NCBI GenBank assembly: GCA_026874595.1
Contig: CM049320.1
Location: 51,410,714 to 51,474,713, forward strand
Origin: Sipunculus nudus
Taxonomy: Eukaryota; Annelida; Sipuncula; Golfingiida; Sipunculidae
Direction of reading: 5' to 3'
Length of the DNA: 64,000 nucleotides
The position numbers and the translations under genes are program-made. Shown piece after piece: positions 4,136 to 60,854 of the stretch (positions within the stretch are counted from its first letter, which is position 1; each line of letters starts with the position of its first letter). Under the pieces are notes generated by a model. The model was not told the DNA's origin and ran no database searches. It saw only the letters and a list, made by a program, of their open reading frames with translations.

Positions 4136-4139
<4 letters not shown>

Positions 4140-13538: not shown

Positions 13539-14499
13539 GTTATTTTTTTCTTGCAGTCTGAAATAAAGCTGAATCTACATGTACCATTAAAGTTTGACTC
13601 TATATAATATATCTGAAACTTCAATGAATTTGAGTTGAAATTAAAATAATAGGTATGACATATAATACAAAGAACATTAAATATAAATGGATTGACAGCA
13701 AAAGTATCCATTTCCCAATATAACATTAACATAATAGGTTGATTAAATTTATTTTTATGCTGTCTCCCCATCAAAGTTCTGGTAAACCAGATCAATGTGC
13801 AAATATGACCAGCATTCCAACTGGCTCCTATTTCTATTTTTATTATAAAATTATATTTTCCAACAAGTAAATAATTGTTTTAATATTATCAGGTATTTTT
13901 ATAATAATAAAAAAATAGATAATATGTTTGCTGTTTGAATATTTATTTTGAATCTGAACTTTCTGTAGTTTGCTATATATTTTGTTTACCTTGCTTCTTA
14001 TAACAAGAATTTTTGTGGAATTGAAGGTGTTATACAAATTAAACTATTTCTATATTATGAGCCAGCTTAACAATGTTAGTGCTGTTATGATATACTGATA
14101 ATCTGTTTCAATACAAACTAAAATTAAGTAATTCCGGTTCCTGCCTTCAGTGGTGTTATGGGTTAAATATACATACAGCAGCAAACGGACGACGGACAAT
14201 GTATTATAGCAAGAACATAACAATAAAACCCTGGTGCTACATCAAAATAACAAAAACTTAATGTGCCTTTCTATTACACTTTCTCCACTCTCCTATAGGC
14301 TCGTACGAGTCTGCAGTATGAGCAGTCTCCATGATTATGTATTAAATGTGAAGAAAAAAAATCTCACAATAATCAACCCCCCTATGTCTTCTACTATTGA
14401 CATGTGCATTGCTTTCAATAAAACAGAATCAGTCTGATATAAACAAGGAAAATGTTTGTATCCAGTCAGATTACAAACTTTGTTCCCATAAACCTAATA
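13539..14499. other. Leader region of the LINE, upstream of its endonuclease ORF
   Basis: AT-rich, no convincing coding frame on the minus strand, where an ORF1 would be expected. ATATGACCAGCATTCCAAC near 13803 resembles the monomer motif GATCTGACCAGCATTATAT, hinting that monomer-like sequence reaches close to the ORF. Confidence 0.45.
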
Positions 14500-23500: not shown

Positions 23501-23717
23501 AATATATATAATTTCTTGAAATATTCCTTGTAAAAGGTTGGCCACTTGGGGCGCTGGCTGACTATTTCAGCGTTCGTATGATGATGATAGTGAGTGGTTT
23601 GTTGTGTTGTGCGGGGACCCTACTTGCCGCATTTTCCAACAGTATCCCTTTGCTGATAGTTTCTCTTGGAATCATTTATAGTAAGTTCAGTGATATAAAT
23701 TAAGGCCATATATCACG

Positions 23718-23772
<55 letters not shown>

Positions 23773-26700
23773 AATACCATATATGACGTTAAGAATGCCC
23801 CCATGGATGTTTTAGGGATCTCTCTGAGAAAACGGAAGAGATGAGCTATTCTCACTCAAAAGCTTTACCAGTACATTCGATCACCATTATTTTACCACCG
23901 TACTTATGATTTTTATGGCGTGATTTAATGTCAGGGTTTCTCAAGCCTATTTCCATACGGAAGGATATTTTCCCCAAATAAGGACATAAAAGAGGTCAGA
24001 TCTTAGCCTGGAATAGCACTTTATTCATATGAAAGAATTTTCATACCGTAATTACTATAAACATCGTTGCTTTCCGTTATTTCCGTCGCCTTATATTATA
24101 AGAATCCCATTATCATGAAAAATACCCGGGATTGAAACCTGCCAGCACCTTCCAGGCCACAGAAACCCTTTGTTTTTATGGCACATTGGAATCGTGCTTT
24201 TCGGCAAATGACAATAGACGTCCAGCTGACAGATAGCCTGTAAAAATACGATATGTCACCTCATAATTAAGTCAACAGATCACCAGTGAATATCAGATTA
24301 AACATCTAGTAAAGTTTGGTATGTATTCCAGCTGGATTGTCGTGCAAAATAGATTTTATTAGCTAATTTTCTCGATTTAGGGGTGCTGATTCAAAATATA
24401 TCAGGTGCCATATTTTAGCCGCGTCTTCAACAGTAATTTTGCTTTTCTAGTAGCCGCCATATTTCCTATATTTTGACTTTTATTTGGCCTTCTGAGCTCT
24501 GTAGAGTAACAGAAGCGGTAGCCACATCCATGTTTACGATACCAGGGATTCCAATCAAACCATTGTCATAATCGCTTAAATTGGATTAGGCCGCGATATT
24601 TACTTTTAAAATGGCCGCCATTTTTAATCCGCATTTGTTTATTTTTACTTGTGAGCATGGGTTAAAATTTAAAATTAGTAGAACATCGATGTTTGTGATA
24701 CCAGCGAATCCATTAAAGCCATGGCCATACTTGTTTAAATTATTCTTTATTCTTTTCCACCATATTGGACTGTTGTGAGCAGCATAGAAAAGAAAAAAAA
24801 ATAGAGTGGCAATACCAATGTCTGTGACATCAGGCATTCCATTGATCAAAATTCCGTGCTTTCATAAATTTTGTTCGGCGGTCATGTTTAATTAAGATAT
24901 ATGATAATCTAAATGATGCTAAAAATCCACATTCATGCTGAAGAGGATCTAGCTGGCTGCGTGTCTAGCATTTGCCTGGTGAATTCAACCGCAATGTTTG
25001 ATTTACAATTTGCCGATATCGAAAATTATTTTAAGACGTGTGATTAAATGTAGTGTACAAGCACTCTGTCACTTATTTATTAACCTCACATGCAAATCAA
25101 TTAAACTGTATGAAAGTGAATGTCAATAATTTCAACGAAACATTTTCTGAAAGGAGACATTGTGTTAACCTTTGAAAGGTCTTGATCACGTGTGCTCTTG
25201 ACGGTTACTACTTCAAATACACCTGTCACGCCAGCCTTACTCGTATTTGTTTATTGCGGAGTGCTTGACATTTCCGGATAATTGTTTTCAAGATTTCCTA
25301 CTGCAAAGATTCTTCAAAGACGTCTTAGTTGGCCACATTGCTGGTTATGTATTATTAAGGCATTGGCGAATTGTGGCTAGAGCGACTGCTAATTCCTAAT
25401 CATGCAGTCACAACAACAACAAATTCAAACCAAGTGCAATTATTGCCATGTTGTTCAGGAGACCTTAAACTTATTGACCATTCACTATCCACTGTTGTTT
25501 TGCAAAAGTTATGTCAGCTTTTGTTCCTGGTCCTCTTCCAAAACAGTAATGGTTCTGGTCTTGACTGGTGTGAGAGGGAATTGAAGCTGCAGTCTTCAAC
25601 AGAGAAAGTCAACCTATTGAGAATTGATGGGCTTTAGGCTTAACCGTTTGTTTTCACTACACACTGCCGCAAATGATTTAGCATCCCATCTTGAATCCCA
25701 CATTATTGAAGCTGGTCATTATTCCCCAGCAAGCGACAGTTGGCAAAATCAGCACCGAAAAATGGTACTGTCATGGTGTTGAAAATAATTAGACCATAAT
25801 GGACTGTTATTATTGCAGCATAAAACTTAGAAACAATTTTCCTAAAATGCCATGCACTCCGCAAAAGGTCTTCATACGAGCCGAGATGAGTGTAACTTAA
25901 GGAGTAACATCATTATTCGGCGGAAAGTTCCACGTCACATGTTACCAAGACCTTGAACAAACGGCACTATGTCTCGCGAGTTCTATGGACCAGGAGGATA
26001 GTTCACTTGATTTGCCTCACTTGATCAAGCAGGCAGCGATAACGGCTGAGAAATTAATTGTATATAAAGCAAGAATTATAGATCCAATTGGAAATTTAAG
26101 CTAAGGACCTTCAATATCTTAAAGAGGAAGACGCGTGGCAAAGTTGGTTAAGAGAAGATAGACAACTAATGTTAAGCTTGCTTGTAGTTCAGCAGTCATG
26201 ACCTCTTGTGTTGCAATTTCTGATTGAGACAGTAGGGGAAACAGGTTTAATGTTTTTTAAAGGAACCTTTTCTCCTCCCATGGTATTTTTCTTATTCCGA
26301 CTGACAACAGTTTCTTTAGTCCATCAAATAAATATTACAATATTGAGTTTTTAAGTGAATCAGTTAACCTGGAAAAGACTTGGTGCATCAAACCCACACA
26401 TTCAAAGAGCATGTCCCATATCGCTAACAGGCAAATGGTATGAGGAGTCAGGATAAAAAAAAACTCCTCATCTTATTGACAAAACCGCTTAGTGGCAAAC
26501 GGTATAGGGAGTTAGGACCAAACATTCATCATGTTATTGCCAATGGATTGTCGGGAAACATCTGATAGAATAATTTCTCTCTAGATATGTCTTCAACTAC
26601 CTCCACCACAGGCAGTTTCTGAAAGAATATTTATATATAAACTTTATGTATTTATTTTATATGTATTTATCATTTTGATATTAAAAACACATGTATTAAA

Positions 26701-28352
26701 CGTAGAACTAATGCAAATATCAAGTTCAAGAGGCTTAATTTATTTTGAATTTCTTTTGTAGGCATAACAGGAACGGCTATAATGACATTCAGCCTACCAT
26801 CAATAAGTAAATATTTCAAACACAAGAAGACATTCGCTACCGGCATAGTATATGCCGGAGGGGGCTGTGCCACCGCACTTTTCCCCATATTTGGGAATTA
26901 TCTCATAGAGAGGTATACACTCCGTGGTCTATTTCTAATATATTCCGGACTGGTGCTGAACATATGTGCTGCTGGGGCCCTCTTGAGGCCGGTACCAGGG
27001 ACACAACACTCCAAACCAAGGCTCTCACATGGTGCCGTACATAAGGACGAAAAGTTAAACAATGTTATTACCATATCTATAATAAGACTTGAAGATCAGT
27101 CCGACATTGCAATTAGCACTGATTCAACTTCATGTGACGCTAAAGGTGAAAGTTCTAATTCTCGGAATAAGGAATGCAAGGATGCTACAGAAAACAGTGG
27201 CTTGGTGCAAAGGGTTTGCAACTTGAGATGCATATTCTATTTAGGGGGCCTGCTGTTCTCCCAGTTCGGCTACTTTACATGTTCGTTCTTTCTTCCTCCT
27301 TTCATGTCTGATTTAGGTTACAATGAAAGTCGGATTTCCCTGGTTCTTGCAATATTTGGTGGCACTGACGCGGTTGGAAAGCTTCTCTTCGGATACGTGG
27401 GTGATATGAATGTTTTTGACCGAAGCACACTGCTCTGCTTTGCTCTATTCGTTTGCGGCCTCTCGACAAGTTTCATTTCAGCATTATCCGCATTGAGTCA
27501 TATTATCGCTACAACTGTAATCTTCGGATTATGTGGTGGTGTGTCTACGATGTATATGGGACCACTAATTCACGACGTCTTGGGTTCTGAGCATGTCGGA
27601 TTTGGTATCGGATTATGCTACACTTTCTCTGACTCGGCCTTCACTATCAGTCCCATTATTGGAGGTAGGTTTGTTCAGGTGGGAGACAAAATACCTGTTG
27701 ACACCGCCCTATTTTAACACGGGGGGGGGGGGACTCCTGCCTTTAACCTTGCAAGATGTTCCCCTCACATTTTCCCATCAAACAAGGCCCCTGCTACATT
27801 TATTCACAAAATCAGAGATAGGTGTAATGTTTTATATCTGGGCAAACCGGCATATTTGAAGTCACGGCCCTAACATTAGTTCCGTCAGAGAAATTAATAA
27901 ACAGGGAAAATATCAGCTAGTCTGTTCATAGCTCAAATAAACTCTGAATTGATTTGAAGTATGTATGTTTTTTTTCTCAATTTTAAAGGTACGAAAAAAT
28001 TATCCTGACATATTTGAGTTTATCTCTGATAAGTAAGCATAGGAGAACCTGTGCGTATAAATCATATACAATACTTAATTTTACTGAAAAAAAGTTTTCT
28101 TTATTTTACATTGAATTGTCGAAATGTAATTTTTAACCTACTTATATCGATTCATTATCTGCTATAAATTTTATTATTCGTTTCATGGTGTTTTACGATT
28201 ATTTTTAATTGCCTCCAGGTGTTTTGAAGGAGATGACGGGGACCTATGCTATGTCCTTCATGGTAGGGCCCGGCGCTTACTTCGCAGCAGTCGGATTGTG
28301 CCTTTTATTCAGACGAACATCAGGATTGTCGAGAATATCAAATAAAAAATGA
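20537..28352 (+). CDS. Monocarboxylate-transporter-like protein (SLC16/MCT family, MFS), intact copy
   Basis: Five coding exons (20537-20603, 23029-23172, 23537-23680, 26762-27664, 28219-28352) join to 1392 bases, 463 residues plus stop, the usual SLC16 length. All four introns are phase 1 with GT/AG ends. The start is the ATG at 20537 because the TM1 motif DPLWAWVALAG follows 12 residues later and the pseudogene copy shares this start. Residues 136-153 (YFKHKKTFATGIVYAGGG) match the SLC16 TM4-5 signature. A hydrophilic loop at about 196-268 separates two six-helix halves, as in MCTs. The TM8 D-x3-R position of MCT1 reads D321-AVG-K325, lysine replacing arginine. The family carries monocarboxylates or related small organic anions across the plasma membrane; the substrate here cannot be inferred. 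The cytosolic tail is short, ending in Lys-Lys. A possible AATAAA signal lies at 28500-28505. Internal microsatellites are confined to introns and flanks. Confidence 0.9.
20604..23028 (+). other. Intron 1 of the intact transporter gene
   Basis: No second gene recognised inside. The region before exon 2 (about 22600-23028) aligns with 850-1168 of the pseudogene (for example the CCTTTCTAATG/ACGTTT stretch just before the acceptor). Confidence 0.55.
23721..23770. repeat. (TA)n microsatellite in intron 3
   Basis: Perfect TA dinucleotide tract about 40 bases after exon 3; position equivalent to the TATC tract of the pseudogene. Confidence 0.95.
24400..24880. repeat. Degenerate tandem repeat, about 130-160 base units
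   Basis: The phrase CATCCATGTTTACGATACCA (about 24526), CATCGATGTTTGTGATACCA (about 24683) and CCAATGTCTGTGACATCA (about 24814) is followed each time by similar GGNATTCCA and ...AAATT sequence; ATGGCCGCCATTTT-type blocks lie between. At least three units are seen, in intron 3 of the intact transporter gene. Confidence 0.6.
24881..26761 (+). other. Distal part of intron 3 of the intact gene
   Basis: Includes overlapping open frames at 25371-25637 that match nothing I recognise. The equivalent pseudogene intron is unrelated here, so this is copy-specific inserted or diverged DNA. Confidence 0.45.
27720..27731. repeat. Poly-G tract in intron 4 of the intact gene
   Basis: Twelve G in a row just after the long exon, inside the intron. 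Length may be uncertain in the assembly. Confidence 0.85.
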
Positions 28353-28499
28353 TTTGGGATGTAGTTAATGTTGTTCTAGCAACGTACATTTGGTTTTCGT
28401 AAGACATTTTCAAAGTCTTTATATTCAAATTTAATTTCATGATCAAAAGTCGCATATGACTGTAGGACCAAAAGGTCACAGGAAAAAGTCGCAGGAAAG

Positions 28500-33689: not shown

Positions 33690-34130
33690 CACAGGGACTT
33701 TAAGTAACTGAACATGGATGTTAAAGCTGGCCTTTGGTAGTATGACAAAATTAAGTCCAAAATATGAGAAATACTGGGACCAGCACAAATATATTCCAGG
33801 TACGTACGTTCATTACTGGACAAATATTCAGATGAATTCTGGAGATACGCTGAAGTCAATACTGGAAACAACTGATAATACAGGAGATATATTTAGATTA
33901 ATATCAGAGGTACACTAAGGTCAATGGCAGAGATATACTGAGATCAATACTGGAGATATACTGAGAACAATACTGGTGATACATGGGAATAAATACTGGA
34001 GATACCCTGAGATCCATATTGGAGATATACTGAGATTAATGGTTGATATATACTGAGACCAATGCAAGGGACATACTGAGATCAATCGTCGGGATATACT
34101 GAGATTAATAATGGAAATTTACTTAGATAG
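33690..34130. repeat. Minisatellite downstream of the intact unit
   Basis: Repeats of about 25-30 bases of the form GGAGATATACTGAGATCAAT with variations (GGTTGATATATACTGAGACC and similar). Its left end is homologous to 19440-19530. Confidence 0.8.
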
Positions 34131-35269
34131 GTTCCTATTCCTATTTTAAGGGTTAACCATTTGCCCATTGGCATAAATGTAAGTTAATAAAGCTTGAACG
34201 TACTGGCAACCTCCGAGATAGCAGCCAGGAATTGACACTAATAGTGCAAGGTATAATGTCGAAAATGAGAAATTTTGATCACGCGCCTTTCTATTAGATG
34301 TGTTAAAAAGGTGTTTACCCGAGAATAAACCACCTTTGAACACTTATATTATGACTGTACGATGAGCGTCATTATTGAAATAATTATCTGTATGGGGTTA
34401 CTATTTATTTTCAATTATCAAAGTCAAGTGGAAATTACAATTCTTGATCTTTCTCTGACTGACTTGTGGTAAGGAATGCTGCATTTGTTCAGTTTATTAC
34501 CAGGTCCAAACACGTTATGAAATGCTATAATCGAAACTTCTACATTTACATCGTTCTATAAAGCACATGCCATGTGATATTTTCAAAGACTATAAGGAGC
34601 TGCATCAGTGCTTGCACGTGATAGAATCAACTGATGATGCTGCCTTTTTCAACCAAATTTGAAAAATTTTCTCCACATCTTAACCATAATGTAACAGTTA
34701 ATTGAAAGACACTGAAATTGGTATTTGAAGGAGGCAAAGTGTAATTTCCTTTAGAAGGGCAATGCTAAGGACGAGTATATGGTGAGGAATATTCATTAGA
34801 AATAAATTACTTTTGCACCAGTTCTTCTAACAGCCTCCAGTCCACAAACTCCTATCAATGAGCAGCTGAGCAATCAGCTACTTCTCAACCTCTCTTGTGA
34901 CCCAACCGTCACCAGAGTCCGATCTCCTAAACTCCCAAGCCTCATTCTGTGCAGATCATGAAGACCAAGTGAAATACATCTCCGTTGGAGAAAAGCACAT
35001 TCTGCTGGTCGACCTGAAATGCCCGAGTCGGGACCAAGAATTTGAGGAGTGTACGTTGTCCACATAGTTTATCTAATTCCATTGGTCTGTTTTAATCATC
35101 TCTGCAGTGAACAACATGAACATCACAATCACAATTATTTTAATATATTAGTTGCTTTTAAATTTTAAATTTGAATAGCTGAAATCAGGATACATACGTG
35201 CATTGGAAAATTAACCAGTAATGCTTAAGAGGAAAAAGTTGATTCATAATAATAACATATTTAATGAAG

Positions 35270-38400: not shown

Positions 38401-41400
38401 AATAAACGGAGGAAACTTGGATGACGAAGATGAAGATGGTAATCTGAGTATATTAATATCGATTTAAATATCTTTGCAGAACTAATTTTACGATTTACAC
38501 TTATTTTTCCCTTATTTTTTTTTTTTTTAATCTAATGAACGCACTGTTAAAGACTAAAATATGTACAACTAATGAACAAAGTTTTGCTATTGAAAATATA
38601 ACACAACACGGTCAAGATCATTACTTTTAGATCCATCCGGGCATTAGTGGAACATTGTATGAGCGGAATTTCTTTAGACATCATCACCCAGTGTAACCAC
38701 ATAAGCCCCCGGTAATGTACATATGTCACAGTAAGCTGGCAGTACGTGTGCTGTCTGTATTATAAGTGTTTCCGGGGCCTTGCTCAGAGGAACGCGATAT
38801 GGCAGTCAGGTTGTCTCTACTGTTTATATACCGTTATATACAAATGTGGTCACCAGCCGGCAATATAATATCTTTAACGAGCACTATTTCAAGCAAACCC
38901 GTAAAAATACTTACTGAACATTGATCCCTATCAGAGGATGTAAATCTAAATCATCTTACCAGAAAACCAATATACCAAGCAGGTACCGGTCCTGTATTCC
39001 GTTTCGTCCACAGTATCCAGAGAACTGTTCAAGTGTCTTCGCTTCACACCCTTTTATCGGTCAGTTTTTATAAATCTATTCTCCTAATGTCGCACATCTT
39101 AGTCAAAATCAAGTTTTACTGGGACCTTAAAGTGACTAAATATGAGAGACTTAATCATGAAGGCAATGATTTATCTTAATAATATAGGTAAATCATGCAT
39201 TTAAATCATTTTATCTTATATCGAGTATAATATAATTGTATAATAACAAAATCAAACACCACAACTGGAAATTATTATTTATGTAAACGTCAGTCAATGA
39301 TTATGAAATTATGTTCTCACGCGTTATGTATAGAATCATTTAAACAAGAGCATTTTACTGATGATTGGTCGTTTTAAGATATTCAATATCAGAACCATTG
39401 GAAAGCTGTTATGTTATCTCAAGAACAGTTCAAGCGGATACGGTGAACGTTTTATTGAAGGTTGTTTCGTGTGAGAGAATGTGCGCTTTAGAATTTCAGA
39501 TCAATCAGAACCATATTGTATTTTTTTCTCGCAAATAACCTCAAGGGCTGTTTAATAGTTCAAGGGTTATTTCTACCGAAGATGGGTCCCTTGTGCTGAT
39601 GCGCAATACCAATATTTAGACCTGCGAATCCGAGTCATAGAGGAACCTAACTAAGCACTTAACCCAACTTGATATTCATAGTATAAATCTCACCAGCCTT
39701 CACCACATATATCAATGGTAATATTCGACTCTCGCGACAAACAAATTACCGGTCCACTTTGTTAATATAATCCCAGGTATGAAGGACAAATGAAACGCAT
39801 ATACGAATATTCATATTTTTATATTTTAAAAGACATTTTATGTTAAATAATGACGAAATGTACTGGATTGAAAAATAAAGAATAAAGAAGAGTATAATCA
39901 GAAATTTGAGGACAATCATTTATTTTAATTTATACACAATATCTCTCCATTTTATATTGTGTCTACCTGTAGGAACCGTTTGATGCCTTTTTTTTCATGA
40001 CAACTGTTTGTACTAACTGTTTCTTCTTCCTTTTACGTCTAGCTGCAAATGCTATTAGGTGACTGTCTTTTGTATCACTTCTCCCTGTATATACTTTAAG
40101 GTACCTTTCTTCCTGTTGATTGCCTGTCTTACACATTGATGGATGTGGTTTCTGTTGGCGAGTCCTCTTTTATATAACATATTATCCTAATCAATGTCCC
40201 AGAAGAATATCCTAGCGTGTAAATATTCGCCGGTACAAGTGCCTTGTCGGCATCTTTATGAGTCAATGTCCCGACATGTTGTCAGCTCTTGTTCATCCAA
40301 TTGAAAGCAACATCCAACATTTGATGTCTAAATGTAACATTATATATGTATATATAGATAAATAAGGTAAATTTGCCAGATGAATCTACCTGCATCGGAT
40401 CGACTGTTACATCTTTGGAAATTGAATACATTTATAGCGTGGAAATAACCTGTCAGAAGAAACCTTTCATTTAACAAGTAATCCAACCATGATAAAATGT
40501 TAAAAAAATTATTACAGGATATATACCATTTCCCGAGAGAGTTGTTTGTCCACTTTGTATATTTAGTTACTGGACTATTGTTTTGCATGTTTTTTTATAG
40601 AAATCCGCGGACCTTGGTCAGATCAGGTCATAAAGCAAAGATTGAAGCAGCCTGTCCTCGCGGATTTATACCCGTAAAATGTAGATGTGGAAGTACTTCA
40701 AGAGGAGCTTTGTTTCACAACACCATTTGTCAGGCCTTCAGTTGGTATACGATAATGGTACAGGTATGTTATAGCATGAAACAGGACATCTTTTGTTCAA
40801 TCCGACAATTTAGAAATCATGGACAGCAATAAATGTTCGATTAGCAGGAAACTTTTTATAATTTCTCTCGTGGAAGAAAATATGCACGCATTGGTTTCTA
40901 TTTTACGGTATTAACGTTATGCTAAAAATTCTTGTTAGTCGTATTTTAACAGAACATAATACTCCTTCATTTATTACTCATTGCTTTTATCTCTGTAAGT
41001 TACATATATTCAATCCCATCTTTAAAAAACCCTATTGTTCACTTTAAAATTGTTACCTAATTAGCAAATGATGTGTCAATTTATTTATCTTAATGTAGTT
41101 CAGAACTTAAAAAAACATACCCTATTGTTTATCATAAAGTCATAACTATATTCTGAAACGTTTTAACCTGAAAGGTGGTCATTACATGCGAGCCAGTGAG
41201 GAACGGCAACCTCAAACATTTGATTATTACATGACGGGAGTAAAGAGTGGGACGCAGCAGGGGTGGACGTGTCCTGATGGAACCAACGTTAAAAACTGTG
41301 GTCTAAAGGAAATTCGAGGGTCTTTATTGTGATATGCAAAGCTTCTAAAACATTTTAAACTAGATATTGTTGTTAGGCGACTACCTGGATATTACCCTTC

Positions 41401-42334
41401 CCCACCACAACTAGCATCATCTGACCAAGATTTTGTACATTTTACTAATGCCATGAGAGCAAACGCTGTCCTTTATACCTATAAATGGGATGCCCTGTAC
41501 GCGGCCTAAGGGATAGCCCCGATTCAGATGATACTGGACATAAAGGATATATTATATTGCCGGTTTACCCCTCCACTATCTTAAGGATTTATTGGACTGA
41601 ACACACCAGTTTCAAATATCATATCCTAAAGTATTTGAATACTCTGCCTCTTGTCATTGTGTGAAATGATTCCTCCAAAAACATATGGTTGGTCTTGATT
41701 CTTAAAGTATGTGTTCAAACAATCACACCTTCCCGAAATAGTTCAAGATAACACGTTGTACCTAAATGTGGTCACATGTAACAAAATCAATACTATCGCA
41801 TCATAAACATATGACCGATCGTACGAATGGTATTCTAACACTATGAGCGCCTTGTGATTACACGCTGTTCGAAAGGTTTACGCCACACATATCGTTAGTT
41901 AAATGAAGACTAGTTTTCTGCCGGACACTTAAAATATCATCACATGGTATACGGTTGACATTTGAAAAATTAATGTTGAAAAGGTGTCAGAAGTTCAATT
42001 GTCAATGGAACAAAATTACTGCCTTCTAATTTTGTTTTATAATGAAAGTTAATGTGAATATATATACTTTGAATATCTGTTTGTAGGAGTTCCTATCCAA
42101 TGGTACAATCTATATCTTCAGGAAACGTCTGACAAATCAGTTGTCGTAGCAGCACCGGTTGTATGATGCAGATCAGATGCCAGTGTAGGTACATGTAATT
42201 ATTTGTTTTGCAGTGTATAGGCATCACTTTAATAAATAAATAAAGCCAACTGGTCATCTGCTTGTCTGTAAAAATGACGTAATTTCTGATTTGCTCTGTG
42301 TGGCTTGCTCTGTGTATATGTTGAGCTGTTTTTT

Positions 42335-42715: not shown

Positions 42716-43550
42716 GTTGACATTGTGACTAAACTAAACATTTCCTTGATTAACCGACAGTCCGTGCCAAAGTCGTGCTCAATTAACCACGTTTCTGCTG
42801 TTTAAGGCATTGTGATAAAAGGAACTTTCCCACACAATGCACTGGGGATTCGAAATGTAATAATGGCGTAGGTGAAAATGTTTGAAGAGATCTGAGGTAC
42901 TCAACCAATCAAATATGCTGCTTTGGAATTGTTTCAAGGCAAATTTAACGAACATGCATAATTTATTTTAAGAACTTAATGAACCATTCAAAAATTGTTA
43001 GGTTTTCGTACGGGCAATGTGCACAACATACTTTTTTTTATTTTATGAAGTTTGACAGTTGAGACAAGTAGACCCAACAGTCCCTAACGGTGAAGAAAAA
43101 AGACCTCTGGCTGGAGGGTGACCAGCCTAGCTGTTGGATAATCCTTAGGTTTAACTAAGTCTCTTGTTGAAAGCTTGTAATCAGCAAACATTCGCTTCTA
43201 CCAGATTAAAACCCGCGTCTCTAGTGTATATATTTTCCGCATCAATAACCTGGACACTCTGCTGTCATACAACTCATTGTTAATGATGCCAAATGCCACT
43301 ACACAGTTTTCTTTATTGAGTTTTCCCTTGCACAGTGGCATATTGCGAAAATCCGGGTCCTGGTTTAAATGCCAGTAAGACTGGAGATTATTATCTGAAC
43401 GACACAGTGTCATATTCCTGTGACCCGGGCTACTAAATGGATGATGGAAAAACCACAAAGAACATAACCTGTACCACCAGCAAAAAATGGGATTTTGGGC
43501 AGGCCCAATAATGCAGTGAAAGTTTATCAAGTGAACTTTTATGTATCTGT

Positions 43551-43599: not shown

Positions 43600-44854
43600 A
43601 TTACGAAAACACTATTACGAATTTTAAAATCAATTACACTAATGTTTCTTGTATTCACTGTATTTAAGCTTAACTTAATTATCATGTCTCAAACACATAT
43701 AGCATACATTGAAATATATTATATAGAGTAGATGGTCATTAGTCTCGAAAGATTACGGGAATCGTCTTGATATTATTTTGTTCCATAGCAAAGGAAGAAA
43801 GATTAAAATCTATATATGAATCGTATGTCCCGAGAAAAATATGGTATCCCAGGCAAATTGAGAGGGCTCTGTTTCTTGGATACTCCTCTAGCCAACTTCA
43901 CCTTTCTCTCTATTCAATGGGGTGACGTTTCTCTGTTCCTGGGAAAAATGAGTCTCAGTATGAAAAGCCTGCCTTCAGGCATCCCTATCTCGGATAATGC
44001 TCTTTTGAGTTTCCGCATGTACAACAGCTGATCTGAAGTCGTGTTAACCTATATCCATATAGTGTCGCATACGGGGACCTTATGCCAGAATGCCATCAGC
44101 AAGACTTATATTGAGAGGCTGCCTGGGAATCCTCTCAGCTTTCGTTATCTAGCAATGTCCACATAGCCGGAAGTTAAGCAGACAATTCCACAATTCGCTG
44201 CTAAAGACTGTGCGCTAGGGCCACACTATTTGTGATCATACCTTCACAGTGGATGTCATGTATGTGTTGTAGACAGCATGCAAATGCGGAAGCTTGACAG
44301 GCCTACTTCTTTTGAGCATGTGGTCAAAGACTCACAACTAAAAAATTGTGTTGAGGACATATACCTTTTGTAAACTGCCACATTAGTATTAGTGGTTAGG
44401 ATTTTGTTTATCCATACTCTCGTATACTCTCGTTAATCCAATTTTCCATGGGCATGCTGCTGGACACCCTTGACCAAAGCAGGTGCAATTCTCAACAATA
44501 TACAAGATTTGGTCGTCTACCCTGATGTTAGGCAGCTGAGTCATCTCATCTTGTTTGAGAATAAAGGTCTTTATGCTGACTGTGAGGGCAAGTTCTCTGT
44601 CGGCATATATAAAGCCTGTCTATTAGCTTTTGGAACTGTTCCTCAAAGAGAACTACGATTGCGGCACCAACAGCAAAGTGTTCTCAAGTCACAACTATTG
44701 TCATCTCGGTCTGTGCTCTCGGGCAGACTTTTGTAACCAAATAATGCTTGTAGTTATGCTTCGTCTTACACATAATGCTAACATTTAACTTAACATTTGT
44801 TGTCCCTTTTATTCCTGGTATAAAAAACACTTTTTTTAATTATCTTACCTGTAG
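43600..44854 (+). repeat. Intronic block of C1 duplicated in C2
   Basis: 44090-44760 aligns with about 52540-53200 (for example GCCTGGGAATCCTCTCAGCTTTC at 44125 against GCATGGGAATCCTCTCAGCTTTC at 52580). Shows that C2 is a segmental copy of C1. No independent gene. Confidence 0.65.
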
Positions 44855-45456
44855 ACATCGAATCAAGAACAACTTCAGAGTCAATCAAAGGCTTCAGCAC
44901 TCTCCCCAACTTCGCCAATACAACCTTCAATCGAGTGGGACAACGGGAAACTTCAGATTCCAGTACGGGCGAATATACAACTGAAATCCATACCCAGCTT
45001 TCTCTGGCGGTACGCACTGAAATGACGACAACTGAAATTCAGACGTCCCCTAAAATGAGAAAAATGTTTGGATCTGGACTTGAGGGCTCAAGTCCTTCTG
45101 GCAAACACATCGTTCTATTTGCCTGTGGGTCCGTTGGTTCATTTATGTTCACAGGAATAACGTGTCTGTTCCTTGTTCTGTTATATCAAACAAAAAAAGA
45201 GATAAGCTCAACGCGTGTCCGATAATGTGGAAGGTTACACAAATAAAACCTTAAGTGATTGTGAATTAGAAGTGAACATGACATATCAGCGTGTCCTGTA
45301 GTTTTATTAATGGGAAACGATATAACGTGACATGTTCTTGTGTGAGTTTTTAGTTTAGTAAAGAACAATTTAGTAAACTGCATTTCCACTTATGCTTAAC
45401 CTTATACAAAATATGAGGAAGGGGGCAGCCAATACATTTAACTGGGTCCCGGAGAG

Positions 45457-49549: not shown

Positions 49550-51730
49550 TTTAGCTCAGCTGACTGAAAGTCATCTGAGCTATAGCAATCACTCTTTGTC
49601 CGTCTGTCCGTCTGTCTGTCCGTCTGTCCGTCTGTCTGTCCGTCTGTCCGTTAACCAGGCACAAATCATAACCGCTGGACTTAGAACCTTGTAACTTGGG
49701 ATTCTGAGAGGTCCATGAAAAATCTCCTTGGAAACCAGAAATTAGGTCTCTGTTACCCATATCCTTTGAGCTATGGGGCCCCAAAGTACCCCCAGAAAAG
49801 TCAAAAATTTCATACAAAAACATCAATATCTCATTAACTACATCACTGATGGTCATGATTTTTGGCATACGTATTGATCATGAGATGTTTCGTCAGTTTC
49901 TGCAGACTGGTGGCGCCACCTGTATTTTTCAATTTTTACGAATTGTTTTCTCTATTTTTGAGACCTTTAAAAATGTGAACAGCTGTTAAGAGGGCACAAA
50001 TCATAAAGACTGGTCCTAGAATCTTCCTTTTTGACACACTGAGAGGTCCATGAAAAGTCTCCATGGAAACCTGAAATAAGGTCCCTGTTACCCATTTCAT
50101 TTGAGCTGTGGTGGGGGGGCTCCCAATAACCCCCCAGAATAATGGAAAATTTGATAAAAACAAACTGCAACATCTCAATAACTACAACACTGATGGTCAT
50201 GATTTTTGGCATACATATTGATCAAGAGGTGTTCCATCAGTTCCTGCAGACTGGTGGTGTCACCTGTATTTTTTTCAAATTTTCACATTTTTTTTTTTTT
50301 CTCTTTTTTTGAGACATTTAAGGATGTAGTTATCTGTCAACAGGGTACAAATCGTAACGACTGGACCTAGAATCTTCATTCTTGACACACGGGGAGACCC
50401 ATGATAAGTCTACATGGAAATCTGAAATTAGGTCTCTGTTACCCATATCCTTTGAGCTATGGTACTCCAAAGTACAGCTCAGAATAATGGAAAATTTGAT
50501 ACAAAAGCTAAAGTATCTGAACAGCTAATGCAGAGATCACCATAATTGTTTGCATGGATATTGATCATGGAGTGTTTCATCAGTTTCTGCAGACTGGTGG
50601 CACCACCTGTATTTGTTCGGGTTTTTTTACGAATTTTTTCTCTATTTTTGAGACCTTTAAAGATATGAACATATCTTTACCGGGTTCCTCCGCCGCTGCC
50701 ACGTTCATTTCCAGAGAGCTCCTCTGAGACTAATAGACTGATTTTTCCGAAATTTACGCCAATTATCGGGTCACATGCGAACTGGTGCCTTACCAATTTG
50801 CGTTGACCTCTGACCTTTCCTCTCTATCCAGCGTCCATTTGTGCGTCTGTTTCCAAACATAAACCCTCATATCTCGGGAACCGTTTGACTGATCAGGAAA
50901 TAAAATTTATACAAATGTAGCCCTTGGATTGCTTTATAACATACACAAAAAATGGTGGCGCCACCTGTAACCATGTTTGCACAGTGTGCATCTGTTCATC
51001 TGCCTTGGGTTAAAATCACTCATATCTCTGCAGTTAATTGACTAATTCACCTGAAATTCGGCATGCGTATACATCCAGGATAGCTTTCTTGATTTTATGA
51101 CAGGTAGCGCCACCTACATTCTAGTTACCGTTGCACACATCCAAGCTCATATCCCAGGTACCATTTGACCGATTGGGCCAAAATTGTGCATGTGTTTAGA
51201 TCTCACATAGGTCTTTATCATACACAAAACTGGAGGGGCCACCTGCAACCATTTTTGCACAGTGTCTGTCTGTTTGTCTGCCGTGGGCTAAAATCACTCA
51301 TATACATGTAGTCGTTTGACTTTTCTGCCTAAAATTTTGCGTATGTATACAACTTGGACAGCTTTCTGGATTTGTGGTAGGTGGCACGACCTACATACAC
51401 ATTTAGGCTGCAGACATCCATGCTAATATGCAACATACCTCACTCTATTTCCCCTTGCCACTCAATCCATGCCTCACTCCACCCGTTCCACTCTGATTTT
51501 GGCGGATACATGTAGAGACTTGTCGGCTACCCGTATTCTAGTTTTTAAAGTTTACACATTTTTTCTCTATTTTTGAGATATATAAATACAGACTAAATCT
51601 TGGCCTGTTGGTTAATCTGTTTGATGCTTCAGTTGAATGGGTATATACTACCATTCTGATGATAAAATTTCCTTTTGCGAATCTCTTCCCAGTCAGCTGA
51701 GCGTCATGACCCATGGGTCACTTGTTTTTA
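49550..51730 (+). mobile_element. Helentron/HINE-like non-autonomous element
   Basis: Left end: T-run then AGCTCAGCTGAC (49553-49564) and a (CCGTCTGT)n tract (about 49598-49652). Right end: GTCAGCTGAGC (51692-51702), its inverted partner, followed by the perfect palindrome TGACCCATGGGTCA (51707-51720) and CTTGTTTTT. Subterminal inverted repeats with a 3' hairpin, an internal microsatellite and central tandem units are the layout of HINE/DINE-1 type elements. The core holds three units of about 345 bases (TTTCTGCAGACTGGTGGCGC at about 49898, 50245, 50587) and two related units of about 285 bases (GCACAGTGT at about 50980 and 51265). No transposase. It interrupts the C1-like framework of C2. 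Confidence 0.65.
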
Positions 51731-52060: not shown

Positions 52061-53670
52061 TCATTTATCTAACTTTGGGGATATTTAACAGTTTACATAT
52101 ACACTGTTCTTATTGCTATATCACGAACTACACTAAAAGTACATGTCCAGATCTTCAGCCACGTTGTCCGTTTTTTGTTAATCCTGTGGAATGCCACAGG
52201 TAGTGTTTATTATTAAAATTGAACTTCGGCAAACTGGGACCCATAATGGATGGCCGGCCTCTGTCCCAGTATCAGGCAGCACTTCCAAAGTGTAGAGCCT
52301 CAGTCACAAAGCTAATTTGAAGTTGCTTTGTAGCAAATGCTACATATTTGACACCTTAAAATGAGGAATAATAGAAGATAAGTAAGATTATGAAGTGTGT
52401 TACCAGACATAGTATTATGTGCATTGTATACATCCGGATCTTGTGAATCATTTGGTGAATAATGTAATGCTAAGATTAATGAAAATAATTAAAGTTGTTT
52501 TACAGTTATATATTTTGTGGAACAACGGCTGACCAGAAGCAAGGGCGTCATCAGCTTACTTCTTCCCCATGGACAAGATGCATGGGAATCCTCTCAGCTT
52601 TCATTCTGTAACAATGAGGGAGCTGGTGGGATGCTGCTACAATCTGTGCGCTTTTGGACTACATTGTTATCTATCTCATCTTCCCAGGTGGCATGCTGTT
52701 GTTCATTCTTTTTTAGTATGTGGTCCAAGACTCACAAATGTAAAACAGTCTGTGGATAAACTTAGGTCTCCTGGGCAGTCACCTTTGTGTTAGTGATCAG
52801 GTTCATATTTGTCCTCAGTCTCTTGTTGAATTAAGAGAAGACATTTTGTCCTTAGGGGTTTGTTGTTGATTTCGTCTTTAGTGGATTGTATGTTTGACAC
52901 GGTTTACCCAAGGTAGATGAATTTCTCAAAAACTTCCCATGTCGTTATGCTTGATGTAACTCAGCTGAGGCAATCCATCTCATACAAGTAACCTGGTCTC
53001 CTTTTACTTGCCGGAAAGTCAAACGCTCTGCATGCATATGTGAAAGCCTGTCCTCCAGCTTTCGGAACGGTTCCTCTATGATCTACGATTGTGGCAACAT
53101 AGGCGAACAAGGTCAAAACCATTCTCAGTTTGGCCTGTGTCCTCAGTCGGGTTATCTGTAACAAAATAAATACTTGCGTTTATCCCTTATTTTATCATTT
53201 ATGACAACAGCCACAGCACCCTTATTTCAACATAACATTCCCGGAATAAATAAAACTGTGAGAAATTATCTGATCTGCAGACATCGAATCTAGAACAACT
53301 TCAGCCTCCATCAGAGGCATCAGCTCTCTCTCTGACTCCTTACTTACAAACCTTCCTCGAGAAGGAAAAAATAAATTATTTCATATTTTTTTAAAAGCAA
53401 AACCACACTGCCTTCTATACCCAGCTTCCTCTGGTAGAATACACCCAAATGACGACAACTGAAATTCAGATGTCTTTTGAAATAAACAACATAGCTGTTT
53501 CTGGAGTGGATGCATATTCAGAACTTGAGGGCTAAACTTCTTCTGACAAACCTCCCTTAAGATTGCATGTTGGTCCGTTTGGTCATTTCTATTCGTCGAC
53601 ATAATTGTTCTGTTATTTCGCGCAAGAAGAAAAAACCAACGTGTGTCCACTTATATGGAAGGTCGTGCAA

Positions 53671-55864
53671 AGTCAAATCTTCAGTGAGTGAACATTTTAT
53701 GTAACATGTCCTGTAGTCTGTTTAATGGAAATAGATGTAATTTGATATGGTCATGTACCAGTCTATAGTTTCGTGTTATGCATTGGCGTTTGAACCAGTG
53801 GTTGAAATCTGTCATCCTGGTAAATAATTAAAAGTTGATAAAATATGAAACAAAAACTGCATAGGAGACCATCAGTCTTCTGCAGCGATTATTGTTTCCC
53901 CTTAAATCTACTATTGCACCACGCAGTTTCAACCAGATGTTCCTCAGAAGTATAGTCTTTTGTATGAACTTTAATATTGCACCAATAGCAGACATCTTTC
54001 ATTATGAAGACAAACAAAGTAAACAGGTATGAAACAGAAAATTACAGATGATGCAACGGGTCTCCTAGACAGTTGAAGATGTCAAAGATCAATAAGCATT
54101 CCCCATTCCATGAAAATACAATCAGAAAATGTTGGCTGGTCATAGCAGACGGCGTGTTTAAAAGTTTTAAGGTGGTGTAAAAATACTGCATGAAAATTCA
54201 GATAAAATGTATATTGCCCTAAAAAATACAATGAATATGAAACGTATCCAATTTTTGGAACCCAGAGAACTGTTTTTAGTACAACAGTAATTTATAGATA
54301 TTCCACCAGATGTCAGCATGAGTCATTTTGTTTGAATAAACCTCAACTCATAGTGAAAATATTTAATCCTAGTATATTACTTTTATAAATCGGAGCATAG
54401 ACACAATGGCAGCTCACCTGAAATACTAAAAAGACAACAAATACGGATGGTCCAACGGGCAACCAGTTCATCTATAAAAACCATCCAGTCGATTGGACTG
54501 AGGTATAGCGATTTTGAATTTTGAATCATAATGTTCGCTCCTCATAGTGCAATAACATGTCAATACTAAACGACAGGCTGTAGATTGCGTGGGCAGATCC
54601 TACAGACCTCTAGTGGAGATTTATTATATGTAGTAAGCATGCTTCAATAAACCCTGGCTCCACTGGCGAGTGGCAGAACAAATAATGGCCATCTACATAG
54701 AGGGTTCTCCTTGTCACAATGATATTGAACCTTTTGAAATAAATTATATTTTTGTAAGGAGGATTACTTTTAAATCTAATGAACAGTTCAATAACTGTTA
54801 CACTAAGCCTCCACCCAAGGAAGACAAAGTACTGGTGGAGATAAACTAACTATAAAATAAACGATGATATGGAATATATGAACACAATTGCTGCACAAAA
54901 ACTGTCAAAGTGTGTGTTTGCCACATCCAGTCAATCAAATGAATGACCTCGTACGTTTAGATTGATTCTAAGAAAGTCAAAAAATGTCAAGTGATATACG
55001 TTAAATGTTCTGTATAAATTGGTTTACAAGGTCACTTTCTCCTGTGGTGCTTCCATATGAATTGTCTAACAAGCGTTCAAAATACGAGTTTACTGAGTGT
55101 TGTACGTATTGGTTAATTGAGCATCATCAATAAATGTGTGTAATTACTAGCAGCAACCGTGCAGATTTGGTGTGCTTGGTTTAACTACCAATTGTATGAT
55201 GCTTTTATATTTAACTAAATAGTCGCGCACAATGTAAATTAAGCACATATTTCTTAAAATAAACTTTAAAATACAAAGTATGATAGAAATGAATGTAAGC
55301 GACAGTTTTCTTATACATGTGTATTTATATAATCTCAATAAATTTTTGCCAATCATTTTACCGTGATGGCGGTTTCTTTTCAAACTATCAGATATACGCT
55401 GAAGTTGAGTCATTTTTAATATCAGCCCATTTATGGTCTATCCATGTCATTACCTCGTTTAGTAAGCCCAATTAGGATTGGTATATGGGTGTTAACTATT
55501 GTATACAATATATAAGAAATCACTAACCATGACAAAAGCTTAAAACATAATACAGGCAATCGTCTCGAATCATTTGCCGTTGTTTCCAAACACAATGGTT
55601 CTTACGTTTGCAGAGGAGCCTCGCACTATGTAAGTATATTCTCGTGACATTGAATTTACAACAATCGTGTAATTTTAGTAGTATACTTGTAAGTAATAAA
55701 ACAACACGGCCAATAGAAAATTACGCTACAAACAATTCAAATCAATTGCACACATATGTGTTACATTAAACATTTAATAATCCATATAAAAGTAACAGAT
55801 GCAATAAATAGCAGGCATATTTATGCTTTTATTTACATCTAGATCTCTTTCTATCTCTATCTCT

Positions 55865-55921: not shown

Positions 55922-56390
55922 CTCATCTGACGACCACCCCGATATTATGACTATCCCACCAACACGATTTTAGGTCAAGGACATAATTAATTTTAAAACA
56001 TATTTGAAAGGAACTCCAGCTGATGCTCCCAACTATAGACCACATTGTTTGGCCAAAACCTTCATATGAATCCCTGTATCAGTACCATTGACAAAGTTGG
56101 ATACGACCGGTTGGATACGACCGATTTTTTGTCATACACTCATACCAAACTTATGATTACCTTTCTTAGCTATTTAAAAACTTAGTTCATTGGAAACACA
56201 ATAAATAACAGTTGATAAACAGGTAACCATTTGATCAAAATGGTATTTTTTAAAGTAAATGACAACGGTTATAGATGATGTCTGAAACAAACAATGACTG
56301 ACTTATCAATAAACGAACATGTGACACTTGTTTAATCTGTGCTCACACAATGCTATAAAAACCGATGTTCTGCATGTTAGACATTTGGTG
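53671..56390. other. Spacer upstream of the open Cys-rich/sushi gene
   Basis: No supported gene. A (TA)n tract lies at 55868-55917. Short open frames without recognisable domains. Confidence 0.5.
56354..56360 (+). promoter_or_regulatory. Candidate TATA box of the Cys-rich/sushi gene
   Basis: TATAAAA 35 bases before a good-context start, ACCATGG at 56392-56398. Spacing would give a very short 5' leader. It depends on the candidate first exon being real. Confidence 0.35.
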
Positions 56391-56394: not shown

Positions 56395-56418
56395 ATGGAA
56401 CCAACTCATCGTCGAAAG
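56395..56418 (+). CDS. Candidate first coding exon of the Cys-rich/sushi gene
   Basis: Reads MEPTHRRK then AAG|GT (56419). It ends in phase 0, as required by the next exon, and would supply the basic n-region of a signal peptide whose hydrophobic core is VIVFLVFGCLAYG in that exon. The donor (GTTTCC) is weak. C1 has a different but equally short basic phase-0 mini-exon (MTKMKM) at 38421, which supports the layout but not this exact exon. Confidence 0.35.
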
Positions 56419-57430
56419 GTTTCCTTTAATTCAACCCATAATCCTCGACAGACTCATTTTTCATAACAAGCAACAAGAAATCGATGACTGTTGTCCGTCT
56501 TTTTCTAAATAAACTACTTCATTTTGTCCTAAATGTTTACAGAATAGGTGCAAATGTAGGGCCTTTTTATTTTCTACTCAACCCTATTAAATAAATGTGC
56601 ACCGTGAAATATTTTTGTTTATATGTTTATATTATCGCCCGGATTAGTTATTGGTTAGACAACCAAATCATTCTCAAGACCCCGCTAATGCGAAGTGTCT
56701 CAAAGTGTTTTGATTCCTATGTTGTTCATTGATTTGCTCAAATAAAACTATGAAGATCAGAAGCATAACTTTATCTGGACACTATAAAAAGCAGATTTAT
56801 CTAATACTTGATAATTACATGTAGCTTACGCTATTCAAGTTTTCCATTTAAACCTTTTTCAAACTGTATGAAAATCATCAGAAACAAATACTTTATCACA
56901 TTTTTATGCACGTTATTTCTCACCGAAGTGTAAAACTGACGCCATGTATGTTATAACTGAATTTTCAGTTGGAAAATCCGGAAAGGAACCTGTGGAATGC
57001 CTCTGACAAAGATTATAGTAAGCCTGATTTTTAATGACTGCATTAACGTTCGGATAGATCAAATACATAATACGCATATTGTGGTAAAAATATAATGCTA
57101 CAACGTGAAAACAGAATAGAAACTCGGTATAGCAATTCCGTTTTGGCAGACATTTGCATACGTAAGGCATGTCCAACAAGGAAAGCATCGAAACCTTTGA
57201 TGTTTCATTACATTGTCAAGTTCGTAGGCCTAATGTGAACTTTATCCTTCAGATTATTACGGTAGTAAGACGTATGTAAAGGATTTTTATATGTGAATGT
57301 ATATGTGATTTATGAAAAACAAAACAAACACTATTGGGCTTAATAGGTTCCTGAGAACGATTCATTGTATTGAAAATATTAGTTTTCTATGAACAGTTTT
57401 ATTGTCAAACGTTCCCATCGATAACTCCAG

Positions 57431-59906
57431 GTGATCGTCTTTCTAGTCTTTGGATGTCTTGCATACGGATCGATGTCAAATTCTACAGGTGGGTAAAAGA
57501 GTTGTTTTGACATGTTTATAATGTTTGGGAAATAAAACGTTTAATAATCAAAATAACAGCAAATATACAATAAGCTTACGACACGTTGTCTAGTCAGAAA
57601 AACGCAGCTTAATACTCGCAACATCGTCACTCCTGCAAAACCCATGAAAAAAATTATGCGCTATATTAAATTACCCGATGGTTACTATTTGTAAACATTT
57701 CGGACATACCACAACCTGCTTTTAACTTTTAATGTTTGTAAATAAATAAACGTTTTTAATTAAAAATTCGTAACAAATTTTCCTTTGGTTCTTGGCAGAT
57801 TAATTTGTTATATAAATTTCCTACAATGGGCATCCATAATCATAGGTTAAAGAATCATAAACCTAATATGTTTTAAATGAGAAAAATGCTTTGTTCAACG
57901 GCACAAATATTGAAAGATGTTGTTCTATATGTTCCTTCATTATTAGGATTTTGCGAATATTCTTTTGTATTTTATTGTATAGAGTTCCGTGGGCCAGTTT
58001 CGACGGGTGGTTCAACTACCACCAGTGATGTTGCATGTCCACCCGGGAACACACCCCTGAAATGCCGATGCGCAGATAATAGGTGTAGTGGGGCTTTGTT
58101 CATAAACAACACGTGCCGAGCCTACAAGGGTCCTTGGTCTTCAGTTTCTCAGGTAGGTTTAGCAGAAAAAAATAGGTAACAGGTCCTAAATGTCTGGAGT
58201 TAGGTGTGTTATGATTCCTTCGGGGGACCAGTCACGCTTAAGCGCACTAAAGTGAACGGGGTACCTGCACCTGATTACAAGAAGGGGCTTCTTCGTGCAT
58301 TGGGGTTTATGATCGTAGTTAACACTAATCACTATACATTTTTCAAAGGGCCTGGGAACGACTATATGTGTAACTCTTTATAATTCTTGAATCACAAGAA
58401 CGTGGTGATGGTTTGTGTGTATTGTTGTTTTTGCAATGGTCTTCAATTTGCACTATGTGTATTTTATATGTGTATTTTATCCACCCCAGTCACTCGAGCG
58501 CATATTTGCAACCGCTGTCTATTTTTTTTTTTAATTTTCGAATTGTATACATGATATCTAATCAGAAACGCTTATATGTTTCTGGTAGCGGTGCGTCATG
58601 AGGGGTTAAGAACGCTACCCTGGTAGATAGGCCCCAGTTCCATGAAGCACTCTTATCATATAATGTCTCGATCTGTCCATTTATGTATCATTTCTTGATT
58701 TAAACACAAATTGGTCTGAAACTACCGTACCTATATGCCTTCCACACTAAAATATAACGATATGATATACCAGATTATTTAGCTGATATATTCTGGGAAA
58801 TATTGCACAGAAATATAAGCTAAGACTGGTTCTCATGCGAGCAATGGTGCAGGCACCGGAATATTTTAATGTATTTTGCTTAAAATTGTTTTCATTTTGG
58901 GGGAAAGAAAACTCTCTAACCAAGTTTTGATCTCAATATTACTTAATTTCAATATAAGACAGTCAATTGACAGATTCATTCATACTTGAGTGCCTGGAAA
59001 TCATATGTTTAAAATTGTTTGGAAGTATATTTAATTCATTGCACAGTCTGTTATAACGTGCGAACCTGAAAGAGAGGACAACCAGAGGTACAAGGATATC
59101 TCGAGGATGGTGACGGTGGGCGGGTCACACAAAATGGTCTGTCCTCCCGGAACTAGAATCACTCACTGCGGCGTTCTCCAAACGTAATGTTGTTTGATCT
59201 TCTTGAGTATTACTTAGCCAACTTCACAGTACACAATGTTGAAAACCGGATATCATGTATTTATTAACCTCTCTTACCATATTTGAAACAGCTAAATCCC
59301 ACATTTTACAAAAAAAAAATATAATTAAAATCAAACTATAATACAAGTATAATGGGCAAAGTATGAATTGGTAGAAAAATAATATTAAATTTCAAAAGTT
59401 ACTCTTTTATACTGTTAAATGTTCACTGTCGATTTTACTTCGACAACTTACTCATTACGCAGTGATATAAGTCACCATTTGAAAACCATTTATTATAAAA
59501 AAAAATAATATATTTCAATGAAGCCCCGATAAGAGGGGAACAGAAGAGAATATGGACCATGTGGAATGGTGCTAAAAGTTTCATTCGAATCATTCATAAT
59601 CATTAGAAATATATGTAGTCTAACTGTTTTTTTACTCATGACATTATACATTATCTGTATTTATATGTAAATATAGCCCTCCCTTATGCAGGCATCCCTA
59701 CCATACTGCAACACGTCTGACTGGAAAGTCCTGCCCAGCAATATGCTTTAAAAGAAACAATTGTCAGATACAGATCAGATGTTACTGTACGTATTTAATA
59801 TATATATATATCTATATACATATATATATATTGATTATTTATTTTTATAATATTCGAATGGAAGTAAAAATTAATAGATAAATAATATCTTCTCTTTTCA
59901 TACCAG

Positions 59907-59955
<49 letters not shown>

Positions 59956-60854
59956 TGCATAATCGTTTAAAATGATATCAATAACATTTAACGTCTTTAT
60001 CACGTGGTTCACTAATTTACCCTTTTGAAGTGTTATATTGTGGGGATCCTGGACCTGGTATAAATGCTATCAAGACTGGGAACTACTACCTGAATGACAC
60101 CGTTCTGTATTCTTGTGAACCTGGCTACTCAATCAAGGATGGAAATCTCACCAAGTATATTACCTGCACCAGCAGAAGAACATGGGATTCTGAACCGGCT
60201 AATTGCAGCGGTAGAAATCCTTAAACGTTTAATTGTAAAGAATATGGTGTTCACTTTAGTCGTTAAGATCAACCGCAATTTACAAAGAACAAAATAATGC
60301 GACAAAGGTTGAAGTAATTGGCATCAGCACTTACGGATTTTAATGATAACACAACTAATAATTCCATGAGAAATTGTAATAAGCAGACGCGACCATATTA
60401 GTTATAACAAATATTCGTAGGTAATAGCAAGTTCTATCTCAATTAGATTGTTGGCTGGAAAATATTTTTGTGGACCGCTCAGAGAAAAGGTAGGAATATA
60501 CCGACATTATGCCTTTTTAATAACATTTTTTCTTCTTCAAATTATCCTGTGTTCAGTCTTCAAGTCAAGAATAACAATAAATTTACAGAACAAATAATTA
60601 GGCCCACTTCAATACTTCTACCTCGAGTGGAACATAGAGAGATTTCTACAGAAGCACCCGAAGCCTCGCACCAAACAGTCAACGTGTCTACCACCGCAAG
60701 AGACGGGGATTCCGGTCCAGAACGGTCGCCTACAGCTAAAAGAGACACCATTTTGACTGCATGCGGGATTGTTGGTTTAATTGTTTTTGGAATGCTGCTT
60801 TTGTTTGTTTTCTTACAAAAGCTGAAAAAGATAAATATTGTGCCCGTACCCTGA
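57431..60854 (+). CDS. Single-pass membrane protein with Cys-rich ectodomain and sushi (CCP) domain
   Basis: Six open exons join in frame: 57431-57488 (hydrophobic VIVFLVFGCLAYG, signal core), 57983-58152 (CPPGNTPLKCRCADNRCSGA, INNTC), 59047-59183 (VITCEP...MVCPPGTRITHCGV), 59692-59786 (KSCPAICFKRNNCQIQIRC), 60031-60210 (sushi domain: four Cys, one Trp, YCGDPGPG start, ANCS end) and 60589-60854 (Ser/Thr-rich stalk, about 22-residue membrane helix, tail QKLKKINIVPVP). 906 bases, 301 residues, plus the first exon. Several N-glycosylation sequons (NNT, NDT, NLT, NCS, NVS). The protein should be a cell-surface type I protein. Sushi domains bind proteins in complement-like, adhesion and receptor settings; the partner is unknown. 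I do not recognise the three Cys-rich exons as a named domain. All splice borders are GT/AG and no stop interrupts. Confidence 0.8.
58153..59046 (+). other. Intron of the Cys-rich/sushi gene
   Basis: No feature seen; the short open frame at 58413-58601 is not supported. Confidence 0.5.
59799..59953. repeat. Two (TA)n microsatellites in an intron of the Cys-rich/sushi gene
   Basis: Tracts at about 59799-59831 and 59908-59953, immediately before the sushi exon. C1 also has a (TA)n beside its sushi exon, but on the other side (43554-43594). Confidence 0.9.

Follow-up and report, generated by a model that had tools for sequence, protein, structure and literature searches.

What kind of protein is encoded near the right-hand end of this locus, and do its Cys-rich exons belong to a domain that has already been described? 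The window, i.e. the whole stretch of 64,000 nucleotides of Sipunculus nudus DNA that was analysed, is intron-rich and low in GC (28-41% in 2-kb steps), and the gene in question is on the + strand, towards the right-hand side of the window. Judging from the sequence, we consider it fairly likely that the gene is the one intact member of a small tandem family, and that it codes for a type I membrane glycoprotein, an anchored extracellular binding head concerned more with binding than with signalling. The local multi-copy family proposed in an earlier note does exist in the sense that there are several copies; however, only one of them is intact, and the other two (copies A and B) have decayed.

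The joined model extends from 56395 to 60854 on the + strand and comprises 7 exons and 309 residues. The phase is kept at every junction (the entry phases of the seven exons are 0, 0, 1, 0, 2, 1 and 1), the internal borders are AG/GT, and neither a stop nor a frameshift is found across the 309 codons before the final TGA. The three Cys-rich exons, the sushi exon and the final stalk/transmembrane/stop exon that the earlier note had reported are all present and join in this way, and the gene end at 60854 is the same in both accounts. The exons and introns of the intact gene differ in GC content (41-53% vs 17-36%). Taken together, this is probably a real gene, and a believable animal cell-surface gene.

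The individual exons, all on the + strand, can be described as follows. A candidate first coding exon, MEPTHRRK, would occupy positions 56395-56418 (phase 0 donor AAG/gtttcc), and a TATAAA at 56354-56359, 41 bases 5' of the candidate ATG, may be its TATA box. The second exon (57431-57488) carries, by hydropathy, the hydrophobic core of a signal peptide, VIVFLVFGCLAYGSMSNST, the hydrophobic segment being VIVFLVFGCLAYG. Two Cys-rich modules, M1 and M2, follow, and both straddle exon borders. M1 is formed by Cys-rich exon 1 (57983-58152), which holds most of the module (ACPPGNTPLKCRC..CSGALFINNTCRAY) and has a counterpart in copy A, together with the first residues of the next exon. Cys-rich exon 2 (59047-59183) contains the last Cys of M1 (VITC), a linker and, at its end, the first half of M2 (VCPPGTRITHC); its counterpart in copy A is weak and in two pieces. 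The second half of M2 (SCPAICFKRNNCQIQIRCY) is in Cys-rich exon 3 (59692-59786, donor T/gtacgt), again with a weak counterpart in copy A. A longer donor for this exon (TGTAC/gtattt) was rejected: it would supply an extra Cys, but the exon would no longer be in phase with the sushi exon. The sushi (CCP/SCR) exon at 60031-60210 has phase 1 at both ends and is identified both by Pfam PF00084 and by its counterpart in copy A. The last exon (60589-60854) was read from sequence and hydropathy as a Ser/Thr-rich stalk, a transmembrane helix, a 12-residue tail (QKLKKINIVPVP) and the stop TGA.

The predicted protein accordingly starts with a signal peptide and continues with a tandem pair of 6-Cys modules, a single sushi domain, a Ser/Thr stalk, a membrane helix and a tail of 12 residues. 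The sole domain that Pfam finds in the whole protein is the sushi domain PF00084, at residues 177-220 (30 bits vs a cut-off of 20.7, E 6.9e-07). A sushi-type four-Cys regular expression that includes the conserved Trp before the last Cys matches once in the window, at 60039, and in 0 of 100 order-1 Markov windows. All 12 module Cys and all 4 sushi Cys are present in the intact gene. The protein carries a signal-like segment and six N-glycosylation sequons, and a single strong transmembrane helix, with a mean Kyte-Doolittle value of 2.84 across 19 residues, precedes the 12-residue tail, in which no recognised signalling motif was found. These sequence features give good support to a single-pass surface glycoprotein. 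The signal peptide, the single transmembrane helix and the short tail are those of a type I protein, as far as hydropathy and a putative first exon can indicate.

It is instructive to compare this architecture with that of known sushi surface proteins. The top PDB sequences for the sushi domain are the CCPs of CR1/CR2, and the closest sushi sequences in the PDB are those of complement receptors and regulators. Since the E-values of these PDB sequences cover whole, many-repeat sequences and no single stretch passed the threshold, the matches say only that the sushi domain is an ordinary one. What the protein has in common with CR1, CR2, MCP/CD46, DAF/CD55 and proteins of the IL-2R alpha type is a canonical sushi domain (PF00084, four Cys) that is carried by a stalked extracellular protein of the single-pass kind. 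In contrast to these, it has one sushi domain only, placed after two Cys-rich modules, and none of these proteins is known to have such modules.

How might such a protein work? We propose that each module would be a small beta unit knit together by disulphides, in which C1-C6 and C2-C5 would be the core pairs, accompanied by a variable third pair; this pairing is our assumption, taken over from the modules of PCSK9. The Cys-rich modules and the sushi domain would together form a ligand-binding head, and the glycosylated stalk would keep this head off the membrane. Because the tail is tiny and without a recognised signalling motif, the protein most likely acts by binding, as an anchored ligand, a decoy, a co-receptor or an adhesion molecule, and not by signalling of its own. 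Its head would work through contact, through the presentation or sequestration of a ligand, or via a partner.

The Cys-rich modules are the part of the protein for which a name is missing. Each has six Cys, and the core common to them is C-P-x-G-x5-C ... C ... I-x-C. When M1 and M2 were aligned with each other the score was 40, which was reached by 13 of 2000 shuffles with the Cys fixed and by 26 of 2000 full shuffles, a likeness that rests partly on one common CPPG motif. The residues C, P, G, C, C, I and C are invariant in the four-module alignment. The pattern C-P-x-G-x4..6-C has four matches in the six frames of the window, two in the intact gene and two in copy A, and all of them are of the form C-P-x-G-x5-C; order-1 Markov windows contain 0.3 matches on average, and at least two in 4 cases out of 100.

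No significant match to the modules was found in Pfam, NCBIfam or PDB, and a profile search of Pfam gives the sushi domain only; the statement of the earlier note that the protein cannot be assigned to a named family holds for these three libraries. Matches to secapin (Pfam, E 0.76) and to the light chain of a Fab (PDB, E 0.89) were rejected as chance. A single scan of viral contigs yielded 11 pattern matches and a single scan of prokaryote contigs 61, and none of these was confirmed as a relative. The structure prediction that had been proposed for the Cys-rich part was carried out with AlphaFold2 on one single exon; it yielded one hairpin at a mean pLDDT of 50.7, which is too poor for a fold search and gives no usable fold. 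Among the titles and abstract openings listed in searches of an open-access library there was none on PCSK9-type modules in molluscs or on the combination of Cys-rich modules with a sushi domain, and as far as the searches on sushi proteins go the combination may be unreported.

The chances are about even that the modules are an ordinary, lineage-restricted short Cys-rich domain with no named fold, within a sushi protein whose role would be structural or adhesive only. The absence of any significant library match besides sushi, and the viral and prokaryote contig scans without relatives, are what one would expect in this case, but absence from Pfam, NCBIfam, the PDB and these contigs says little, and small disulphide domains diverge fast. 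A bolder proposal, which we think improbable, is that the tandem C-P-x-G-x5-C modules represent an extracellular domain that has not yet been described, perhaps an invertebrate offshoot of the PCSK9 V-domain/resistin fold. This domain would make up the binding head in a family of sushi-bearing surface receptors that duplicates in tandem and evolves by birth and death. The Cys-rich part is a decent orphan, not a proven new system. Should the modules be a new domain, the gene would offer a clean, small starting point for defining it; if they are neither new nor V-domain/resistin-like, the gene simply adds to the number of orphan sushi proteins.

The tandem family, of which we take this gene to be the intact member, can be traced in the neighbouring DNA. 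A tblastn search with the model detected copy A, a paralogue 17 kb upstream (40.6-45.2 kb), in which Cys-rich, sushi and stalk/transmembrane pieces follow one another in the same order and on the same strand. This copy is a pseudogene. Two of its pieces are significant alone, namely the sushi exon (43336-43516, E 6.6e-22), which contains two in-frame stops, and the counterpart of Cys-rich exon 1 (40602-40763, E 7.6e-06), which is 36% identical to that exon of the intact gene and whose module M1 lacks one of the six Cys. The others are weak alone: the counterpart of Cys-rich exon 2 (41178-41305) consists of two halves in different frames (E 0.055 each), the stalk and transmembrane exon (44855-45222, E 0.071) is still open, and the counterpart of Cys-rich exon 3 (42082-42192, E 4.4) ends in ...CMMQIRCQ and has a stop upstream in that frame. 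At the DNA level Cys-rich exon 1 and the sushi exon are well above 20 shuffles, Cys-rich exon 3 is slightly above (41 vs a shuffle maximum of 35), and Cys-rich exon 2 and the stalk/transmembrane exon are not above. Cys-rich exon 1 of the intact gene aligns with positions 40581-40780 of copy A, acceptor included, and the intron that follows it beat 100 of 100 shuffles, this being one of five intron/upstream comparisons between the copies. In the codon-aligned parts of Cys-rich exon 1 and the sushi exon of copy A and the intact gene (76 codons) there are 12, 16 and 38 differences at codon positions 1, 2 and 3, respectively, and this split shows that both copies were once under coding constraint; a single intact copy does not in itself demonstrate expression or present-day selection.

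Copy B (46.3-53.8 kb) is more fragmentary. It has flanking DNA and a broken 3' stalk/transmembrane exon in common with copy A; the decayed exon region (53026-53774, + strand) contains stops and is 65% identical to positions 44595-45359 of copy A over 791 aligned positions. No Cys-rich or sushi exon was detected above shuffles in the copy B region. Inside this decayed copy (49647-50684, + strand), a unit of about 340 bases occurs three times as a direct repeat, with 73-80% similarity, beside a run of CTGTCCGT. Duplication in tandem and subsequent decay would suit a recognition family that evolves by birth and death, be it in immunity, gamete recognition or adhesion.

With both neighbouring copies dead, one may ask if the model itself is partly wrong, i.e. 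if the intact copy is also decaying or has been mis-joined, for example because it starts at 57877 or because exons are missing. Exons 1-2 have no support from copy A: the best match of the candidate ATG exon at the DNA level (24) is below that of the shuffles (35), and the signal-peptide exon, at 30 vs a maximum of 29 in 20 shuffles, has no convincing counterpart. Of the five exons further downstream, three have only a weak match in copy A. Upstream of Cys-rich exon 1 the intact gene and copy A have a weak collinear stretch, with an insignificant score of 41 that 7 of 100 shuffles attained. Nevertheless, an error of this kind seems unlikely to us in view of the 309 open codons, the AG/GT borders, the matching phases and the full set of 12 module and 4 sushi Cys. 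As to the start, we prefer the one composed of the 56395 and 57431 exons to the ATG at 57877, because it would give the protein a basic n-region as well as a hydrophobic core, and would place the ATG 41 bases after a TATAAA. The ATG at 57877 is in frame, and the open stretch of 36 codons that it begins (57877-57984, + strand) runs directly into Cys-rich exon 1; an open Met-starting stretch is present at the corresponding place of copy A (40497-40601), possibly as an alternative first exon.

It is also worthwhile to compare the modules with those of the C-terminal V-domain (CHRD, resistin-like) of PCSK9. If M1 and M2 were distant relatives of these, which we regard as doubtful, the gene would encode a membrane-bound V-domain protein that binds surface proteins. 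For the comparison the human PCSK9 sequence was first checked against PDB chains. At first sight there are several similarities: small repeated six-Cys modules, a C-x2-G-x5-C opening, the NTC Cys of human M3, and a C-x8-C spacing that PCSK9 M1 and M3 share with the present modules. According to PMC3820617 the V-domain subdomains have three disulphides each; the modules of the intact copy have six Cys each. On the other hand, they do not have the CC pair with which every PCSK9 module closes, they are two and not three, and there is no subtilisin part.

The statistics in favour of such a relationship come from one module pair. M1 and human PCSK9 M3 align with a score of 42 that was reached by 13 of 2000 Cys-fixed shuffles (VAC..G.T...C......GA....NTC), and the score of PCSK9 M3 with M1 of copy A was reached by 51 of 2000. 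However, 8 of the 9 single-module pairs with PCSK9 score below the M1-M3 pair. M1 is at chance with PCSK9 M1 and M2 (872 and 692 of 2000 shuffles), and the scores of the seven pairs that remain besides M1-M3 and copy A M1-M3 were reached by 115 to 1210 of 2000. The PCSK9 modules compared among themselves gave 15, 342 and 1330 of 2000, which means that the shuffle test has little power. With the four-module profile PCSK9 M3 obtains 6.5 bits, as did 12 of 1000 Cys-fixed shuffles or better, but PCSK9 M1 and M2 are at chance (984 and 977 of 1000). Likewise, hhalign gives a P of 0.018, but over 12 columns only and at a probability of 2.6%. A three-module PCSK9 profile searched against 1562 sequences had M2 as its best match at a non-significant E of 0.23; the whole protein had no match up to E 50, and M1 was not among the matches listed. 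When the whole Cys-rich region was compared in four settings, between 122 and 185 of 1000 shuffles did as well. Finally, the Pfam families PCSK9_C1/C2/C3 list neither the whole protein nor the 3 module sequences up to E 10, whereas the human control matches PF18463 and PF18464 (C2 and C3). A classification of the modules under PCSK9 was rejected, given that Pfam, the PCSK9 profile, hhalign and the whole-region shuffles all fail. If they were V-domain/resistin-like after all, this would mean that the fold is used outside PCSK9 as the head of a membrane receptor, and it would bear on the origin of the PCSK9 C-terminal domain and on what that domain binds.

Least plausible, and very unlikely in our opinion, is a derivation of the modules from the CPPG-type repeat in the MABP beta-prism domain of MPEG1 (perforin-2): the three-module profile had 6sb1 (MPEG1) as its sole match in the PDB, the score of M1 against the MPEG1 stretch was reached by none of 3000 Cys-fixed and by one of 3000 full shuffles, and the four-module profile gave this stretch 9.4 bits (2 of 1000 shuffles), but the E of 0.57 is at chance level, and the shuffle figures are biased because they take no account of the selection of this stretch as the top match among 177,635 sequences. 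The stretch has no second Cys at x8 and its match spans 41 residues only; with M2 the score was reached by 124 of 3000 and with M1 of copy A by 12 of 3000 Cys-fixed shuffles. The P2 domain of MPEG1/perforin-2 is described as an MABP beta-prism in the review PMC7593815. As in our modules, its repeat opens with a CPPG-type motif and several Cys lie close together, but here there is no MACPF part and the Cys spacing differs, and with no significant profile match membership in the MABP domain was rejected. In view of the failed PCSK9 tests and the biased MPEG1 figures we claim neither membership.

The rest of the window contains a few further features. A gene with several exons that resembles MFS transporters is present in two tandem copies, at 1000-7000 and 22700-28400 on the + strand, about 21.8 kb apart. 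The MFS domain PF07690 is found with E 7.8e-27 in 26749-27714 of the second copy, and 5249-5797 of the first reaches 17.5 bits, below the cut-off; the matching pieces are 46-94% identical in protein, and the first copy lacks 51 residues relative to the second. A LINE-type retrotransposon is present on the - strand at 9888-13574, with a reverse transcriptase (PF00078, E 6e-42), a zf-RVT domain (E 3.2e-08) and a piece similar to an endonuclease that narrowly misses the cut-off. Its domains are spread over several overlapping open frames, so that the element is probably broken. Finally, a tandem repeat with a 23-base unit is found at 33855-34137, where nine overlapping copies of 99 bases lie in register and are 63-75% alike to the reference.
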